A stretch of 64,000 nucleotides of DNA from the NCBI GenBank assembly GCA_016176845.1, contig JACOWJ010000025.1:1-64000 (forward strand), given 5' to 3'. This document shows, piece after piece, positions 10,444 to 59,971 of this stretch (positions within the stretch are counted from its first letter, which is position 1; each line of letters begins with the position of its first letter). The position numbers were made by a program, and so were the translations under genes. The stretch comes from Nitrospinota bacterium (GTDB lineage: Bacteria > 2-12-FULL-45-22 > JACOWJ01). A model generated the notes under the pieces. The model was given only the letters and a program-made list of their open reading frames with translations. It did no database searches and had not been told where the DNA came from.

Positions 10444-12588
10444 ATGGCGCACCGATTTGCTCGCTGGTGGTTGATTGGCAACGCCAAGGCGGAGCAGGTC
10501 CGGCGGGAGGAGATATTGAACCACGCCCGCGGCGTGGTCAAGGCGGCGGATGGGCTGAAGGAGATGAAAGTCGGCTATGCACCCGTACCGGAGATGCTCT
10601 TTGAGGTCGGAGAGATCTTTGCCGGGAGCCGGGTCGCCTTAGGGAGCCAGAGGGTCCCCTGGGAATCGGACGGGCCGCACACCGGCGGTACCAGCCCGGT
10701 TCTCCTGCGGGAGGCCGGCGTCCTTTATGGCATCATTGGACACCGGGAGGCCAGGGACGAGTTTGGCGAAGGACCTCGGATCAATCGGCAGATCATGACC
10801 GCCCTGGATTACGGCATCGTCCCCATTCTGTGCTGTGGGGAGCCCAAGGAGACGCGAACGGATTCCGAATCCCAAAGGGAAAAGGCCCTGGAGGGGGAGA
10901 TCATACCCGCACTGGAGGGGCTGTCCGCAGAGCTGCTTCTGGGGGGAGACCTGACGATCGCCTATGAGCCGGGGCACGTCATTGGATTGGACAAACCTGC
11001 CGATATGGATTCCATCCGGTCCGGCTTCTCGCTAATCCAGCGGATACTGGCCAGGCATGGTTTGGAAGGGGTGGCTGCAAAGGGGCGGCTGCTCTATGGC
11101 GGGGGCGTGAATTCTGAGACCATCCAACAGGTCTGGAACCTGGATCAGCCCACCCGCGCCTTCTCCGGGGAGAACTGGGCCGGATTCCTGGTGGGTCGTT
11201 CCAGCGCTTCGCCGGACTTTTTGGACCTGATGGAAAAATGGCACAGGAAGCTGGGGGGTAGGGGAGCAAGGGAGCAAGGGAGCAAGGGGGCAGGGGAAAA
11301 CCTTCCCCAGTCCCTGCGCTCCTCCGCACCCCTCCTTGGCCCCTCTGCTCCTCCGCGCCTCCGCCCCTCCGCCCAAATCGTCCCCGGGATTGTGCCTCCC
11401 TCCCGCAGGGTCAAAGTGGCCGTTTATGGCGTGGGAGAGGTGGGCGTGGGGTTCATCGCCGGCCTGATGCAGCAGGACAAGGTAGAGGTCGTCCAGCTCT
11501 TCAACTTACAGGTCGATGCGGAGGACCTTCGGGCCCGGATGTACAAGAGCCTTTTCTTGGGAAAGGATATGGTCCATGCCCACGGCCATACGGTCTGTGT
11601 CCGGGAGGAGATCGACCTTGAGGGAGAGATCGAGATCGACGGCGAGCCCATAGCTCTGCGGAACCTTTTGAATGGCGCGATCTCCCCGACGAGCAAGCTC
11701 GTGAAGGTGCGCCGCCACCAGGAGATGCAGGTGACTTTGGCGGAAGACCCCAAAGAGGCCGCGGCCAAGCTGCGGGACGATGTGGACGTGGTCTTTTTCA
11801 CGGCCGGGGGACTGCTCAAGGAGAGAGAGCTGCTCACTCCTTTCCTCAAGGCTGGGGCCAGGCATATCGTGGTCAGCTCCACCAGTCAGGCATCCGATAT
11901 CACCATCATCCCGGGCTTCAACCACCATCTTTTCAACCCTTCCCTACACAAGATCGTGGCCCTGGCCTCCTGCACGGGCAACTGCGGGGTGCCCATCGCG
12001 GCCATCGTGGAGGAGGAGCTGGGCAAGGGGGCGATCGTGGGGGCCCTGATCGTTACGGCGCACTCCAAGACCAATTCCCAGCAGGTGGGGGACAAGGGCT
12101 CTGACCCCAAAGAAGAGGCCATCCTGAACAACTTGATCCTGACTTCCACCGGGATCAAGGACATCCTGACCCGTCAGGGCTTCTTCCCTGGCATTGGCGA
12201 TGCCGTGGACGCTTTCTCCGTGCGGGCCCCGGTCGAAAAATCCTCCCTCCTGGTGATGTTGCTCCAGGTCCAATGGGCTCAAGGGATGAGCCGAGAGCGG
12301 CTGCGGGAGGTCTTCCAACGGGCCGCCGCCTCGGACCGTTGGCGGGGGATCGTTAATTATGATCCGGATCATGATGGCTCCAAGGTTTACCAGAATAGCC
12401 CGGCGGGGGCCGACATCTTTGGGAAATTGATCAACGTCTGGCCCAGTCCCTGGCTGACGGATCGAGAGGGCAACCGCCAGCGCCGCAGCGATCTTTCTAC
12501 CCTGATCATACCAGCCGCCTACGCCAATGTCTACGGATACGGTCAGCAGGCCAAGCGCATCATGCAAGTGATCGGCCAATATCTTTAG
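10444..12588 (+). CDS. Triosephosphate isomerase-glyceraldehyde-3-phosphate dehydrogenase fusion
   Basis: A 714-residue two-enzyme chain. Residues 1-272 are a divergent TIM barrel that keeps the three catalytic positions: Lys15 (IGNAKAE), His100 (IIGHREAR) and Glu175 (AYEPGHVIG), plus the phosphate-binding YGGGVN and FLVGRSS. Residues 322-714 are a divergent GAPDH: Rossmann motif VYGVGEVGVG, catalytic Cys510 in ASCTGNC, His540 in TAHSKTN, then TSTGI. Together the domains would convert DHAP to G3P and oxidise it to 1,3-bisphosphoglycerate. The linker, about residues 273-320, is Gly/Ser/Pro low complexity and is encoded by a palindromic GGGAGCAAGG repeat. The GAPDH NAD loop and signature depart from the usual INGFGRIGR and SCTTNC, so its activity is not assured. 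Confidence 0.88.
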   Translation: MAHRFARWWLIGNAKAEQVRREEILNHARGVVKAADGLKEMKVGYAPVPEMLFEVGEIFAGSRVALGSQRVPWESDGPHTGGTSPVLLREAGVLYGIIGHREARDEFGEGPRINRQIMTALDYGIVPILCCGEPKETRTDSESQREKALEGEIIPALEGLSAELLLGGDLTIAYEPGHVIGLDKPADMDSIRSGFSLIQRILARHGLEGVAAKGRLLYGGGVNSETIQQVWNLDQPTRAFSGENWAGFLVGRSSASPDFLDLMEKWHRKLGGRGAREQGSKGAGENLPQSLRSSAPLLGPSAPPRLRPSAQIVPGIVPPSRRVKVAVYGVGEVGVGFIAGLMQQDKVEVVQLFNLQVDAEDLRARMYKSLFLGKDMVHAHGHTVCVREEIDLEGEIEIDGEPIALRNLLNGAISPTSKLVKVRRHQEMQVTLAEDPKEAAAKLRDDVDVVFFTAGGLLKERELLTPFLKAGARHIVVSSTSQASDITIIPGFNHHLFNPSLHKIVALASCTGNCGVPIAAIVEEELGKGAIVGALIVTAHSKTNSQQVGDKGSDPKEEAILNNLILTSTGIKDILTRQGFFPGIGDAVDAFSVRAPVEKSSLLVMLLQVQWAQGMSRERLREVFQRAAASDRWRGIVNYDPDHDGSKVYQNSPAGADIFGKLINVWPSPWLTDREGNRQRRSDLSTLIIPAAYANVYGYGQQAKRIMQVIGQYL
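11262..11385. repeat. GGGAGCAAGG / CTCCGC low-complexity inverted repeat inside a coding region
   Basis: Tandem GGGAGCAA units followed by a loosely complementary CTCC/CGCC-rich arm. The tract is in frame and codes for the linker between the TPI and GAPDH domains. It resembles in style the intergenic palindromic tracts of this window. Confidence 0.65.
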
Positions 12589-19594: not shown

Positions 19595-19616
19595 CTCTTT
19601 TCCCTCCCTAATTTTT

Positions 19617-19834
19617 ACCGTTAAAATGCCAGGGTCTTTCTGAAGGACCTTTTCATCCGCAGGGGCGGCAAACCCTGCTTGGCCATGTCGGTTTGTTCTT
19701 ATATTCTAATTATAATTTTAATTCCCTCCCTTGCATCTTCACAAGAAAACTTTTATGAAACCGACATGGCCGACCGAAGTTGGCCGCCCCCGGGAATGAA
19801 AACGGCCCCCGGAAGACTCGGGCATTTTCACGTT
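19617..19834. repeat. Two inverted 77-78 bp repeats flanking 63 bp
   Basis: Copy b (19617-19694) starts near CCGTTAAAATGCC and ends GGCCATGTCGGTTT. Copy c (19758-19834) is its inverse, from AAACCGACATGGCC to GGCATTTTCACGTT. The pair could fold into a large stem. The gap 19595-19901 between YbaK and deformylase holds nothing else I can name. Confidence 0.75.
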
Positions 19835-19901
19835 AAAATTCCCGGGGAGGGGGCTCTGTCCCCGCTCGGGGGGGCCTCTCCCCTTTGGGGAGTGGGCATC
19901 G

Positions 19902-38954: not shown

Positions 38955-39980
38955 GTGCTGAACAGCTGGCTGTCGGGGCTGATTATCAAGGGAATCGCAA
39001 TCGATTTGGGTACGGCCAACACCCTAATCTATATCAAAAGCAAGGGCATTGTCTTGGACGAGCCTTCGGTTATCGCAATTTCTGAGAAAAATAGCTCCGT
39101 GTTAGCTGTAGGCCGGGAAGCCAAAGAAATGTACGGAAAGACCCCCGAGTTCATTCGGACCCTTCGACCTATAAAGGACGGGGTCGTCACGGATTTTGAG
39201 GTCACTCAACAGATGATCTCTTCCTTCATCCTGAGGGTCCTGAAAATCCCCTTCCTCAAGCGAATTCGGATGATTATCGGCGTCCCCTCCGGTATCACCG
39301 AAGTGGAGAAACGGGCCGTGATCGAGGCAGCCAAAAAGGCCCAAGCATGGGAGGTTTACCTGATCCCGGAGCCGATGGCCGCGGCCATTGGCTCCGGCCT
39401 TCCCATCCACGAGCCCACCGCCCATATGATTGTGGATATCGGAGGCGGGACCACGGAGGCCGCTGTTATCTGTTCTTACGTCGTCTCCTGTTGGCAATCA
39501 ATCCGGGTGGGGGGAGATGAGATGGACGAAGCGATTGCTCATTATGTCCGGGAACGGTTCAACATAGACATCGATATTTTCGAGGCCGAGCGGGTCAAAA
39601 AGGCCATCGGTTGCGCGATATCCTTGGAAGAAAAGTCGGAAATTGATGTCCGGGGGAAGGATCTCTCCACCGAGATGCCGAAAATCATCCGGGTCGATAG
39701 CGAGATGATCCGTGAAAGCCTTCGGCCCACCCTGATGAGCATCGTTGAGGTAGTTCGCAGAACCTTGGAACATATCTCTTCCGCCGTGGCGGCGGATATC
39801 TATGACAGGGGACTGACCATTGCCGGCGGTGGCTCCCTCTTGCGAGGCCTGGCTCCTTTCCTGGAGACAGAAATCAGCCTTCCCGTTCAAATCGCCAAGG
39901 ATCCCCTGGTGGCCATTGTACGAGGAGCAGGCTTCGTCCTGGAGAATTTCTCCAGGTATCGACGGGTCTGCATGCCCTAG
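38955..39980 (+). CDS. mreB: Rod-shape actin MreB
   Basis: A 341-residue bacterial actin that organises lateral cell-wall synthesis under the inner membrane. It starts MLNSWLSGLIIKGIAIDLGT (amphipathic N-terminus then phosphate-1 loop), with GKGIVLDEPSV-type sequence after, VPSGITEVEKRAV, the phosphate-2 motif IVDIGGGTTEAAV and the adenosine motif IAGGGSLLRGL. GTG at 38955 is the start, matching the family N-terminus. Unlike most genomes, no mreC, mreD or pbp2 follows; instead fmdB converges from the other strand. A second actin of another subfamily lies 0.7 kb away. Confidence 0.95.
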   Translation: MLNSWLSGLIIKGIAIDLGTANTLIYIKSKGIVLDEPSVIAISEKNSSVLAVGREAKEMYGKTPEFIRTLRPIKDGVVTDFEVTQQMISSFILRVLKIPFLKRIRMIIGVPSGITEVEKRAVIEAAKKAQAWEVYLIPEPMAAAIGSGLPIHEPTAHMIVDIGGGTTEAAVICSYVVSCWQSIRVGGDEMDEAIAHYVRERFNIDIDIFEAERVKKAIGCAISLEEKSEIDVRGKDLSTEMPKIIRVDSEMIRESLRPTLMSIVEVVRRTLEHISSAVAADIYDRGLTIAGGGSLLRGLAPFLETEISLPVQIAKDPLVAIVRGAGFVLENFSRYRRVCMP

Positions 39981-40007: not shown

Positions 40008-40388
40008 CTATAAGTCGTCGCCCAGGTCGCCTGAGCCCAAGTCCGGCATGGAGGCTTCGATCTCCTCAGGGCTTTCCCCAGTTTCCAGCCGCTCAACCAT
40101 CTCGCCGAACTCTTCCCCTAGCTCTTCTCCCGACTCCTGTCCCATCTTCTTCATCCAGCGGGCGAGACTGCGAGGGTCGTTCTCGTCCAAGTCCCCCAGG
40201 TTCCCGGGATCCGCCAGGGCATCCAGCCGGCTTTCCTCCGATTTGATCACGCTCACTCGGGAGATAAGCCGCCGCAGGTCCCCACCGCCACAATGAGGGC
40301 AGGAGGCCTCACGGCTGGCGGAAATCGTCTTCCATAACTTGGAGAAACGCCTCTGGCAGCTGTTGCAGACATATTCATAGATCGGCAC
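40008..40388 (-). CDS. FmdB-family zinc-ribbon protein
   Basis: A 126-residue protein. The start VPIYEYVCNSCQRRFSKLWK with CNSC and later CPHCGGGDLRRLIS is the FmdB/CxxC_CxxC_SSSS zinc-ribbon signature. The remainder is acidic and ends LGSGDLGDDL. The start is GTG at 40388 with AAAGGGGAG ahead. FmdB proteins were first noted as presumed regulators of formamidase or amidase genes and are found in many genomes with no such link. It converges on mreB, leaving 27 bp between stops. Confidence 0.88.
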   Translation of the reverse strand: MPIYEYVCNSCQRRFSKLWKTISASREASCPHCGGGDLRRLISRVSVIKSEESRLDALADPGNLGDLDENDPRSLARWMKKMGQESGEELGEEFGEMVERLETGESPEEIEASMPDLGSGDLGDDL

Positions 40389-40434
40389 CTGTGGACTCCC
40401 CTTTGCTAAGTACCGCTCCACCGCGATCAAGATA

Positions 40435-40532
40435 TGGCGGAAGCGCGTGGGAGTCGAACCCACCGAGGACTTTATTAGAGCCCGCCACTGGATTTGAAGT
40501 CCAGGAGGGACACCGGAACCCTTTGCGCTTCC
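40435..40532 (-). tRNA. selC: tRNA-Sec (anticodon UCA)
   Basis: On the minus strand the 5' end GGAAGCGC pairs with GCGCTTCC to give the 8 bp acceptor stem typical of selenocysteine tRNA. The anticodon arm is CTGGAC-TTCAAAT-CCAG with anticodon TCA. A long variable arm (GGCGGGCTCTAATAAAGTCC) and the T arm GTGGGTTCGACTCCCAC follow. Discriminator G and CCA are encoded. With selA at 52780, this shows the cell reads UGA as selenocysteine. It lies between fmdB and the MamK-like gene, on the same strand as both. Confidence 0.95.
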
Positions 40533-40648: not shown

Positions 40649-41743
40649 TTAAAGCTGCTGCCAATACTCCAGGGGCATGTCCATGGCCAACTTCAAGGCA
40701 CCCTGGGCCCCGGCATAGATCGGATCGTCCACCACGATGACCTTTCCCCCGCCCAGATCCGCCATGTTCTCTTCCAGAAGCTTATCCAGCCTCCGGATCT
40801 GGCTGCATCCCCCGGCCAGGATGACATTGTTGCGGAGCGTGGTCTGGAACTCCGGATCGAAACTGCCGACCAGCTCACGGATAGCCTCCACGATGTCGGG
40901 CACGATGCTTTCGCAGGCCCGTTTCATCTCGTCGGTGACATCGTAGGGGACCAGCTTCCCCCTTACGGGGAATTCCGCCACCACGCCGTCCGGGGTATGA
41001 GAGACGAATCCGTGCTTTTCTTTGCAGAGGCGGGCCATATTCCGGGTTAGTTGGGCCTCCTTGCATTTCTCCTGCAGGAGCCGATAAAGCAGCTCGTCGA
41101 TATAGTCCCCAGCTTTGAGGACCGTGCGCTGATCCTCCTCCTCAGGGATCGTACCATGCATCCGGCATAGATCGGTCGTTCCCGCTCCGATGTCAATGAT
41201 CAGCCCGTACTTGAGGAAATCACGTCCGTAGGCCACAGTAAAGGGCTCGGAGACCACCATGGCCGCGTCCAGCACCTCCCGACTCGCATCGATCAGGGCC
41301 TCTTTGTTGAAGAGATTGGCACGAGCTGGCGCTCCGATCACCCCGTAGACCTTCTCGCCAGGTGTGGGCTCCGCCAGGCTGACCAGGTGTCGAACCAACT
41401 CCTTGGCCGCCTGGCGGGCCTGCCCCTTCTCTTCGGGGCTGGCGCTGCTCTCATCCTCCAGGGTGTGCTTGATTACCCCTTTCTCCAGAGGGCGGCAGAG
41501 ATTCAAGAGCAGGCGGTTTTCCAAGGCCTCTTCCCCAAAAACGATGGACCGTTGGTTCATTAGCCTTTGAGCAATGGCATCTTTGGGCCACCCCACCAGG
41601 CTGAGCAAGGTCTTTTTCCCCCCTTTGCTGGTACAGATGGAGCTCCGAAAGGTCCCCAGGTCGATCCCAATGTAGAGGTTCTCTCCTCTCATCGCCCCTT
41701 CCTCCTTCATCGAAACAGGAGAGCCTTCTCCCTGCTCTACCAT
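40649..41743 (-). CDS. mamK-like: MamK-like actin (magnetosome filament protein family)
   Basis: A 364-residue actin fold. Phosphate-1 loop IGIDLGTFRSS (25-35), SEPF with the catalytic Glu166, phosphate-2 DIGAGTTDLC (184-193) and the adenosine motif VILAGGCSQIRRL (307-319). Subfamily features agree with MamK and not MreB: VGWPKDAIAQRLM, RPLEKGVIK, EPTPGEKVYGVIGAPARAN, MHGTIPEEEDQ, KAGDYIDE, DEMKRACESIVPDIVEAI, FDPEFQ and a terminal LPxxYWxQL-like MPLEYWQQL. MamK polymerises to align magnetosomes; relatives exist in non-magnetic bacteria. ATG at 41743 follows AGGAGG. It sits 25 bp after a frameshifted gene, with tRNA-Sec downstream. No other mam genes are seen in the window. Confidence 0.85.
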   Translation of the reverse strand: MVEQGEGSPVSMKEEGAMRGENLYIGIDLGTFRSSICTSKGGKKTLLSLVGWPKDAIAQRLMNQRSIVFGEEALENRLLLNLCRPLEKGVIKHTLEDESSASPEEKGQARQAAKELVRHLVSLAEPTPGEKVYGVIGAPARANLFNKEALIDASREVLDAAMVVSEPFTVAYGRDFLKYGLIIDIGAGTTDLCRMHGTIPEEEDQRTVLKAGDYIDELLYRLLQEKCKEAQLTRNMARLCKEKHGFVSHTPDGVVAEFPVRGKLVPYDVTDEMKRACESIVPDIVEAIRELVGSFDPEFQTTLRNNVILAGGCSQIRRLDKLLEENMADLGGGKVIVVDDPIYAGAQGALKLAMDMPLEYWQQL

Positions 41744-41935
41744 CGTCCTGTTCCTCCTATGGCCTCTGTCATTTCGGTTCCCCTTCGACATGGTTCAAAC
41801 AAGAACGGATCTGCTCCAGGCCCTCCCTGAGGACTGCCAGGGCCTTTCGGACTTCTTCCTCTCGGCCGGGTCCTTTCCCCCGCAATTCGAGAGGAGCCTC
41901 TTTGGCCAGATTATTCTCTCCGCCCACTGGACGAG

Positions 41936-41945
41936 TTTTTTTTTT
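41936..41945 (-). other. A10 homopolymer slippage site
   Basis: Ten T on the plus strand, read as AAAAAAAAAA within the gene upstream of the MamK-like actin. It marks the switch between two coding-quality frames. Such runs allow transcriptional or -1 ribosomal slippage, and also attract sequencing errors. Confidence 0.6.
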
Positions 41946-42116
41946 GTGCTGGCGACCACCCCTAACTTTTCCAGCTTCCAAAGACCTCCTTTCGGGCCTG
42001 GAGGATTTACCCCTCCTTGAATAGGCTCGCTCCCCTCGTCAGAACTGATGGGAACTTGCTCCAGAGATTCGGGGAAACCCCCCTCCACGCTGGGAGAATC
42101 CACCGAACCTTTTTTT

Positions 42117-42191
42117 CCCGTGAAAATGACCGAGTCTTCCATGAGCCCATTTTCCTGCTTGGGGGCGGTCAACTCGACTTTGCCATGGTTT
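42117..42191. repeat. Copy of the 77 bp repeat inside a coding region
   Basis: CCCGTGAAAATGACC ... GGGGGCGGTCAACTCGACTT ... CCATGGTTT matches the intergenic copies at 19617 and 59894 in order and spacing. It lies in frame inside the gene upstream of the MamK-like actin and codes for about 25 residues (NHGKVELTAPKQENG onward). Confidence 0.7.
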
Positions 42192-42508
42192 AGTTCGCCC
42201 CTCTGAGGAGGTAGATCGCCCTGGCTGTCGCGGGCTCCGACCCCCTCCCCATTTCGGCTCAAGTCGATTCCGATACGGAGGCCTTCAGGCTCGCACCAGA
42301 TACGGACGCAAACCTCCCTTTTCCCGTCGAGGAGCTCCTTCAATAGCTCTAACCATTCCATCAGGATCAGATCCCTCTGGACGGCGCTCCATCGAGCGAA
42401 GGCGACCGTCGCGTAAGGTTCCCTGGCGCGAGGAAGAGGACCCAAAATGGTGAGGGCCAAAGACCCTTCATCCTCCCTCTCAGATAAAAAGTTAAAGTAT
42501 AGCTAGCT

Positions 42509-52506: not shown

Positions 52507-52584
52507 AAACCGACATCCCCAGGCAAAGTTGACCGCCCCCGGGCATAACAATGGACCTTCGATAGACTTTGGCATTTTCACGTT
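52507..52584. repeat. 77 bp repeat with 8 bp flanking duplication
   Basis: AAACCGACATCCCC to GGCATTTTCACGTT, 78 bp, flanked on both sides by AAAATTAG (52499-52506 and 52585-52592). This is the only copy with a clear flanking duplication, which suggests the family was mobile. Its ends are not inverted repeats of each other. Confidence 0.75.
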
Positions 52585-52633
52585 AAAATTAGCTAAATGT
52601 TAGCACAATCCATTTTGCGGGACAAGGTTTTAC

Positions 52634-52779: not shown

Positions 52780-54240
52780 ATGGCTGAGATCACCTTAGAA
52801 CAGGCCAAGAGGAGGCAGTTGCGCGGCCTTCCATCGGTCGACGAGCTCCTCCAGAAGCTGAGCTCGCTGGAAGGCATCGGGGAACGATCCCGCCGGCGGA
52901 TGGTCGAGTCGATCCGGGAGGTGCTGGAGAGGCTGAGGCGGTCCATCTTGCAGGCCGATACCCTGTCCCGGTTGAACGATATCGACCTGTCAGAAGGCCA
53001 TCTCCTTCAGGAGGTGGAGGGACAAGTAGCCCGCCAGGAGGCCCCCAGCCTGAGGCGGGTGATCAACGCCACCGGCATCATCCTCCACACGAATTTAGGC
53101 AGGGCCCTCCTCCCCCAGGCAGCCTTGGAGAACCTGGTTGCCATTGGCAAATATTATTCCAACCTCGAGTATGACCTGCTCAGCGGCGAGCGGGGCTCTC
53201 GGCACAGCCACGTCGAGGAGCTCATGCGGCGCCTGACGGGGGCTGAGGCCGCCCTCTCGGTCAACAACAATGCCGCCGCCGTCCTCCTCTCGCTGGACAC
53301 CTTGGCCCAGGGCCAGGAGGTGATCGTCTCCCGGGGGCAACTGGTGGAGATCGGGGGCTCCTTTCGGATCCCGGACATCATGAAGAAGAGCGGGGCCCGG
53401 CTGGTGGAGGTGGGAACCACCAATAAGACCCGCATGGAGGATTATCGGGCGGCGATCACTCCCGAGACCGCCCTGCTCCTGAAGGTCCACACCAGCAACT
53501 TTCGGGTAGTGGGGTTCACCGCCGAAGCGAGCCGGGAGGAGCTGGTGGAGCTGGGCCGCCAGCACCAGCTGCCGGTTATGGAGGATCTGGGCAGCGGCAA
53601 CTTCATCGATCTCGCCCGGTACGGCCTTGCCGCGGAACCCACGGTCCAGGAGGTAGTCCGGGCCGGGGTCGATTTGGTGACCTTCAGCGGCGACAAATTG
53701 CTGGGAGGGCCCCAGGCGGGCGTTATCCTGGGCCGGCAAGATTTGATCGGTCGGATCAAAAAAAACCCTCTCACCCGCGCCCTGAGGATCGATAAGCTCA
53801 CCCTGGCGGCGTTGGAATCCACGCTCCGCCTATACCTGGACGAAGAAGTGGCCATCCAGCAGATCCCCACCCTCCGGATGCTCACCGCATCCCCTCAGGC
53901 GGTGGAGAAGCGGTGCAAGGCCCTCCTCCGGAAGACGCAACGCCTGAATGGGAGGAGGATCGCTGAGAATAGGTATCCTCTCGAGGTCCTCATCCTGGAC
54001 GAACACTCCCAGGCAGGGGGAGGCTCCCTGCCCCTGGAGCTCCTGCCCACCAAGGTCCTGGCGTTACGATCCCCCACCGCTTCCTCGGAGACCCTGGAGC
54101 GACTCTTCCGGGCGAACGAGCCGCCCATCCTGGGCCGTCTCCAGAAAGACTTCCTCTACCTCGATCTTCGTACCGTGCAAGAGGAAGAGGAGGTCGAGCT
54201 CCTCCAGGCCATCGAGCGGGTGGCTCAGGAATTGGGGTGA
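52780..54240 (+). CDS. selA: L-seryl-tRNA(Sec) selenium transferase
   Basis: A 486-residue PLP enzyme converting Ser-tRNA-Sec to selenocysteinyl-tRNA with selenophosphate. Family motifs are LRRVINATGIILHTNLGRAL, YSNLEYDLLSGERGSRH, NNNAAAVLL, VEVGTTNKTRMEDY, HTSNFRVVGFT and the PLP lysine Lys306 in FSGDKLLGGPQAG. Length is typical (about 460-490). ATG at 52780 begins MAEITLEQAKRR. selB and selD are not in the window; tRNA-Sec is at 40435. A MITE lies just upstream. Confidence 0.95.
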   Translation: MAEITLEQAKRRQLRGLPSVDELLQKLSSLEGIGERSRRRMVESIREVLERLRRSILQADTLSRLNDIDLSEGHLLQEVEGQVARQEAPSLRRVINATGIILHTNLGRALLPQAALENLVAIGKYYSNLEYDLLSGERGSRHSHVEELMRRLTGAEAALSVNNNAAAVLLSLDTLAQGQEVIVSRGQLVEIGGSFRIPDIMKKSGARLVEVGTTNKTRMEDYRAAITPETALLLKVHTSNFRVVGFTAEASREELVELGRQHQLPVMEDLGSGNFIDLARYGLAAEPTVQEVVRAGVDLVTFSGDKLLGGPQAGVILGRQDLIGRIKKNPLTRALRIDKLTLAALESTLRLYLDEEVAIQQIPTLRMLTASPQAVEKRCKALLRKTQRLNGRRIAENRYPLEVLILDEHSQAGGGSLPLELLPTKVLALRSPTASSETLERLFRANEPPILGRLQKDFLYLDLRTVQEEEEVELLQAIERVAQELG

Positions 54241-59755: not shown

Positions 59756-59971
59756 AATTTAATCGCAAGGAATTTCTTTTTTTAGGGATTGGGGCCTGGG
59801 ATTAGCGAAAGCCTTTCTTAACCAATCCCTAGTCCCTGGTCCCTAATCCCTGCGAACTCAAAATTAAATATTAAATTAAGCATAGGAGGCTTTAACGTGA
59901 AAATGCCCGAATCCCTCTGGAGCCCGTTTTCATCCAGGGGGCCGGCCAACTTTGCCGGGCCATGACGGTTT
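59756..59971. repeat. CTAGGG-type palindrome and 78 bp repeat in the 59583-60128 gap
   Basis: An inverted module fragment (CGCAAGGAATTTC, about 59763), GGGATTGGGGCCTGGGATTAG arms to 59852, and a 78 bp repeat copy at 59894-59971 (AACGTGAAAATGCCC to GCCATGACGGTTT). The stretch 59583-59755 and 59972-60128 shows no gene; a TATAAT-like box lies near 60069. Confidence 0.75.

Follow-up and report, generated by a model that had tools for sequence, protein, structure and literature searches.

The gene mamK normally sits inside the magnetosome cluster, and it serves as a marker of magnetotaxis. Relatives of the encoded actin have been described in other settings as well. AMB-1 MamK-like is a MamK paralogue encoded outside the magnetosome island (PMC2818848), Bbp (big bacteria protein) is a MamK-like actin of giant bacteria with a non-magnetosome role (PMC10580974), and BeeR, reported from the Verrucomicrobiota, is a MamK-related actin whose role is likewise not a magnetosomal one (PDB 8r2n, PMC11929497). 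Planctobacterial MamK has also been mentioned in the literature (PMC7203096), and Mad28 is distinguished from MamK by a serine instead of the aspartate in the phosphate-2 motif (PMC10653835). The same paper used other MamKs for complementation of a mamK deletion in M. gryphiswaldense.

A MamK-type actin gene is considered here that was found in a window of 64,000 nt (the whole stretch of DNA that was analysed), which forms the first part of a 100,427-bp contig; the genome comprises 1.53 Mb in 61 contigs and is 68% complete. Taken as a single gene, it is another instance of a kind already published, for which Bbp and BeeR are the precedents. What is new here is an apparently common tail peptide, putatively a docking site, that is carried by unrelated partners of MamK-type actins.

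Subfamily, fold and conserved residues

The window protein scores 430.9 bits against the NCBIfam model of MamK (NF040964), which lies above the curated cut-off of 400, while its scores with the BeeR model (192 bits, cut-off 530) and the MreB model (53.7 bits, cut-off 293) stay below. The preliminary description had assigned the protein to MamK rather than MreB from a set of subfamily positions; all of the quoted motifs (VGWPKD, GVIGAPARAN, GTIPEEEDQ, KAGDYIDE, PDIVEAI and YWQQL) occur in it and line up with AMB-1 MamK, with which the protein shares 44% identity, and profile scores, tree and structure agree with the assignment. A true MreB had been placed at 38955, and rightly, as the protein encoded there reaches 417 bits with the MreB model and only 68 with the MamK model. 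Its identity to the MreB of every genome tested is about 50%, which gave no assignment to a phylum. From Mad28 the window protein is set apart by the described phosphate-2 motif, in which it carries the MamK-type aspartate (DIGAGTTD, with D167).

The preliminary description had proposed a phylogenetic tree, and in one that includes MreB and BeeR the window protein groups with MamK; together with the MamK-like proteins it is split from MreB with a support of 100/100, and BeeR forms a separate branch. An identity as MreB or BeeR is ruled out by the model scores and this tree. The MamK-like proteins contain three large groups, namely one of 25 rows (98/87) with an amidase as upstream neighbour, one of 43 rows (95/80) that is mostly planctomycete, and one of 9 rows (100/100) from Poseidoniales. 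The window protein lies outside all of them and is weakly associated with the G056 sequence, two Latescibacterota sequences and AMB-1 MamK, a placement that receives 85/85 with outgroups and 38 without them. A single clade of the magnetosome MamKs from AMB-1, two Omnitrophota (L021, L023) and Desulfamplus (L041) was not rejected (AU p 0.46); the data being compatible with such a clade, several origins of magnetosomal MamK are not claimed. On the grounds of sequence and model, the window gene is classed as encoding a MamK-family actin.

The AlphaFold2 model, built on 50 homologues, has a mean pLDDT of 94.6 and a pTM of 0.90, and among PDB entries it matches the MamK double-helical filament 5ljv best (E 2e-40, TM 0.90/0.96), followed by BeeR and then by MreB. 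E149 and D167 (347-aa numbering), which correspond to AMB-1 E143 and D161, are invariant among the 50 homologues, and the equivalents of the catalytic and nucleotide-binding features (E143, D161, GIDLGT and AGG) are all present in the window protein. The FDPEFQ segment, which matches A278, is nearly invariant in the same homologues; A278D is the non-polymerising MamK mutant that was crystallised as 5ljw. As judged from the alignment, the residues around the filament interface are conserved in the window protein. Because the catalytic residues and the interface segment are kept, we infer that the protein should bind and hydrolyse ATP and polymerise.

Gene start, neighbourhood and search for magnetosome genes

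The gene noticed in the preliminary description is real, and two of its details required correction, as it is encoded on the minus strand and its start is better placed at ATG 41692 than at ATG 41743. The open frame covers 40649-41743/41791, with further in-frame ATGs at 41743, which would give 364 aa, and at 41791. ATG 41692 appears the best choice because AAGGAGG lies 8 nt upstream of it and the alignment of the MamK family begins there too (Table 1). A genome-wide search found one MamK copy, and no MamK was found in one other genome of the phylum, which belongs to the same order.

Table 1. Features at the actin locus, in window coordinates.
Feature	Position	Strand	Basis
MamK-family actin gene (preferred ATG 41692, 347 aa, stop included)	40649..41692	-	NF040964, identity, tree, AlphaFold2
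Shine-Dalgarno-like GAAGGAGG preceding ATG 41692	41701..41708	-	sequence
tRNA-Sec directly 3' of the actin gene	40439..40532	-	ARAGORN; Rfam RF01852, 70.4 bits
FmdB-type zinc-ribbon protein, positional neighbour only	40008..40463	-	TIGR02605
True MreB, separate from the MamK-like actin	38955..39980	+	NF010539, 417 bits
Upstream partner ORF (ATG 42361 to TGA 41769-41771)	41769..42361	-	codon-bias scan
Run of ten A at the frame change of the partner	41936..41945	-	codon-bias scan and sequence
Copy of the ~76-nt dispersed repeat, in frame inside the partner ORF	42113..42188		repeat search

The tRNA-Sec is a positional neighbour only, and a functional link to the actin was rejected, as tRNA-Sec adjoins a mamK-like gene in none of the 39 related loci scanned. 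The same window holds selA at 52780-54237 (609 bits), and from the pair the organism probably makes selenoproteins. The FmdB homologue of a MamK-less sister genome stands without tRNA-Sec or mamK alongside. No mreC or mreD was noted directly after the MreB gene, the next gene being the convergent FmdB-like one. Elsewhere in the window, a plus-strand ORF of 714 aa (10444-12585) combines a triosephosphate isomerase domain (residues 10-264, PF00121, 128 bits) with a divergent GAPDH-like half (residues 324-653, PF02800, 32 bits), which by its domain matches is a TIM-GAPDH fusion, unusual in a bacterium.

The upstream partner had been described as repeat-invaded and of no recognised identity, and both statements stand. 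A dispersed repeat of ~76 nt, with the pattern CGTGAAAATGCC..GAGTCT..CCATTTTC..GGGGGCGG..AACT..GCCATG, sits inside the ORF, for which neither a Pfam or NCBIfam match nor a homologue in one other genome of the phylum was found. Other copies in the window lie near 19612-19687, 19778-19838, 52527-52588 and 59896-59951, and genome-wide the repeat is present at no fewer than 18 sites, sometimes in frame inside genes. A mechanical ORF call had given 41795-42460 for the partner; its codon bias stays in one frame between 42361 and about 41950, then in another between about 41930 and the TGA. The frame change at the run of ten A is an assembly error, a slippage site or a true frameshift.

No other magnetosome gene had been visible in the 64 kb, which holds for magnetochrome, MamM and MamA, and the genome-wide search that had been suggested, run here for these three, gave nothing above cut-off in the 68%-complete genome. 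There was no real match to magnetochrome (PF18509; best E 0.45), MamM (NF033615, cut-off 350) drew one CDF transporter at 122 bits, and MamA (NF040959) drew only TPR proteins, all below 40 bits. None of these sub-cut-off matches lies on the contig of the window, and neither a mam cluster nor co-occurring mam genes were found in the 68%-complete genome. The preliminary description had left two alternatives, an orphan filament with another cargo or the edge of a magnetosome island. The former fits best; the latter is unlikely, gained no support and was rejected, with no mam homologues on the contig or genome-wide and with the genome-wide searches for magnetochrome, MamM and MamA all staying below cut-off. 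As the genome is only 68% complete, these searches argue against a magnetosome cluster and do not prove its absence. Searches of viral contigs and plasmids returned nothing useful.

Relatives, partner genes and a recurrent tail motif

When 84,980 species genomes were scanned, 221 relatives of the window actin emerged. The best 80 align with it over almost the entire length at 44-54% identity and represent at least 12 phyla, with two archaeal groups, Poseidoniales and Methanoperedens, among the sources; MAG labels may carry some binning errors. The bacterial sources of these 80 are Planctomycetota, Omnitrophota, Nitrospirota, Desulfobulbaceae and relatives, Gammaproteobacteria, Acidobacteriota, Latescibacterota, Gemmatimonadota, Rhodothermota, Rokubacteria and Schekmanbacteria. 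In a broad sample of 145 genomes, four others had matches above 380 bits. The magnetochrome domain passed its cut-off in 3 of the 50 MamK-bearing genomes tested, namely L021, L023 and L041, which serve as internal positive controls; in L023 and L041 mam-like genes (a CDF transporter, and a MamE-like or MamN-like gene) adjoin mamK. Most MamK-like actins thus appear to be non-magnetosomal, and a match to the MamK family alone is poor evidence for magnetosomes. The rarity implied by the preliminary description was mistaken, MamK-like actins outside magnetosome clusters being widespread (47 of 50 genomes without magnetochrome), and the pairing of MreB with a MamK-like actin, pointed out there, is the rule, with MreB present in 28 of the 30 MamK-bearing genomes tested.

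Comparison of 85 loci revealed that the gene adjoining mamK varies by lineage. An amidase-like protein is the neighbour at 24 loci, which represent no fewer than eight named phyla; the two proteins that were scanned match Amidase_3 (PF01520), and the rest cluster with them by BLAST. These proteins bear an unusual N-terminal extension of 40-65 residues followed by a hydrophobic stretch that probably spans the membrane. At 41 loci, mostly of Planctomycetota and including the magnetosome loci of two Omnitrophota and Desulfamplus, the neighbour is a coiled-coil or other protein, and at nine Poseidoniales loci it is a zinc-ribbon protein. At two Methanoperedens loci the downstream gene belongs to the Arch_fla_DE family (PF04659; Pfam on L065, with L094 alike by eye), and these FlaD/E-related proteins (L065 1510-2118, L094 10997-11608) directly follow the MamK-like actin and carry a C-terminal tail motif. 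Nothing was recognised as a neighbour at 9 of the 85 loci, that of the window among them. At locus L015 (11346-15033) genes for ParB-like and ParA-like proteins and for a response regulator come after the MamK-like gene, a possible chromosome or cargo partition context.

A motif, K-x-x-[IL]-[LM]-x-x-[VI]-[FY]-x-x-N-[LI], recurs in the gene adjoining mamK at about 65 of the 85 loci. It lies in the presumed cytoplasmic tail of the probably membrane-anchored cell-wall amidase (at least eight phyla) and at the end of planctomycete coiled-coil proteins. It also ends the gene that precedes mamK in the magnetotactic Omnitrophota and in Desulfamplus, and the FlaD/E-like protein of Methanoperedens. A 17-column matrix (consensus KKELMxxIFxANLxLQK), which was trained only on 32 regex-selected and mainly planctomycete partners, finds the motif in proteins outside its training set. 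These include amidase tails from Nitrospirota, Desulfobulbus, Rhodothermales, Rokubacteria, Schekmanbacteria and Acidobacteriota (shuffle p 0.0002-0.002; for example KAAILRGVYEDNLELAQ) and one from Gammaproteobacteria (p 0.007). The motif was likewise found in the partners encoded by the three magnetotactic genomes (p 0.0002-0.0004), in both proteins from Methanoperedens (p 0.0004 and 0.0014) and in planctomycete partners of a second type (p 0.0002-0.006), all with the reservation that related sequences are not independent. Weak cases are Gemmatimonadota (p 0.054) and one Chromatiales tail, in which the motif is kept in part only. An initial Fisher test (36/83 versus 9/964) was discarded as evidence because the regex had been written from the same sequences, and held-out tests were used.

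As a control, 27 amidases were inspected that rank among the best of those from genomes lacking a strong match to MamK; they have no such tail, mostly begin with an ordinary signal-like N-terminus, and score at most 2.0 for the motif at that end. For the three amidases that come from genomes with MamK the scores are 16.3, 6.6 and -0.5, and because the last overlaps the controls, the motif score alone is not a perfect classifier. Second motif-bearing proteins, perhaps additional filament clients, lie some 7-9 kb from the MamK-like gene at L027 (15675-16970), L047 (17710-18435) and L052 (17719-18456), all Planctomycetota or unclassified.

The tail peptide is proposed to dock on MamK-type filaments. 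The broader claim, that MamK is one branch of a large bacterial and archaeal cytoskeletal family whose varied cargoes are reached via one docking peptide, stands evenly balanced between true and false. If it is true, magnetosome alignment would be one use of a general tethering module, and the window actin would be a family member with a different adaptor. The motif links the MamK family to cell-wall amidases in non-magnetic bacteria, and its presence on unrelated partners provides a testable idea of how MamK-type filaments choose their cargo.

The combination of MamK with a tail-motif partner is not found at the window locus: the motif is absent from both frames of the upstream ORF (score -4.2, shuffle p 0.45), with no convincing site elsewhere on the contig. 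The L029 amidase used as query had no match in the 68%-complete genome, and an amidase partner was rejected for the window on this basis. The C-terminal helix of the upstream ORF, EEEVRKALAVLREGLEQIRSCL, is different from and unrelated to the docking tail; the ORF may be a lineage-specific adaptor with this helix, or a decaying gene.

Explanations weighed and known systems compared

An orphan MamK-type filament with a non-magnetosome cargo, outside any magnetosome system, is quite probable as the explanation of the window gene. The actin would bind ATP and polymerise, as sequence and model predict, into MamK-like filaments that would hold or position a protein or envelope cargo other than magnetosomes, and the link to this cargo would be made through an adaptor encoded beside the actin gene. 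In most relatives the adaptor or cargo would be the product of the adjacent gene, its conserved tail peptide docking on the filament, and in the genome of the window the candidate adaptor is the upstream ORF. It is in this genome that the adaptor idea is weakest, because the ORF lacks the motif and may be broken.

That the protein is a genuine magnetosome MamK, with its cluster on the unassembled third of the genome, is highly improbable. The incomplete assembly, broken into 61 contigs, and the weak tree position near AMB-1 MamK (85/85 when outgroups are included) speak for it, but the flanks of the gene, about 40 kb and 59 kb long, hold no mam homologue, the gene upstream does not resemble its counterparts in the three magnetotactic relatives, and 47 of the 50 MamK-bearing genomes are free of the magnetochrome domain. 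A remnant of a lost magnetosome island, in which the actin was kept by chance or repurposed and the partner is decaying, would accord with the frame change and inserted repeat of the partner ORF and with the lack of MamK in the other examined genome of the phylum. It is nevertheless unlikely, as the actin is intact and conserved at all functional sites, similar orphan genes and their neighbours are conserved across whole phyla, which is not a pattern of decay, and the repeat, occurring in at least 18 genomic places, is not specific to a decaying gene. The existence of Bbp in non-magnetotactic giant bacteria, alongside MreB (PMC10580974), speaks for an actin of the Bbp type, tied to large cell size; this reading is distinctly unlikely, given that the hypothetical and Kelch proteins of the published operon are not seen here, with no Kelch protein recognised among the window proteins scanned. 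The orphan filament with another cargo is accordingly retained as the best explanation.

Compared with Magnetospirillum MamK (PDB 5ljv, 5jyg), the window actin shares the HMM subfamily, 44% identity, the fold, the catalytic residues and the filament-interface segment, and differs in its other neighbours, its deep separate branch and the lack of detected magnetosome genes. AMB-1 MamK-like is similarly encoded outside the magnetosome island; however, its genome is that of a magnetotactic bacterium, in which it acts together with MamK to align magnetosomes (PMC2818848). Bbp, known for instance from Electrothrix gigas, resembles the window actin by its description: it is MamK-like and occurs alongside MreB in bacteria that are not magnetotactic. 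It is distinguished by an operon with a Kelch protein (PMC10580974). BeeR is likewise MamK-related and found without magnetosomes, but the window protein attains only 192 of the 530 bits required, BeeR occupies a separate long branch, and its three-stranded tube is unlike the MamK double-helical filament matched by the window model. A likeness in family and context is also offered by the orphan MamK-like actins known from Planctomycetota, Desulfobulbaceae, Nitrospirota, Poseidoniales and further groups, nearly all of which come without magnetochrome and usually, as in the window, with an adjacent partner gene, although most of their partners bear the tail motif and that of the window does not.
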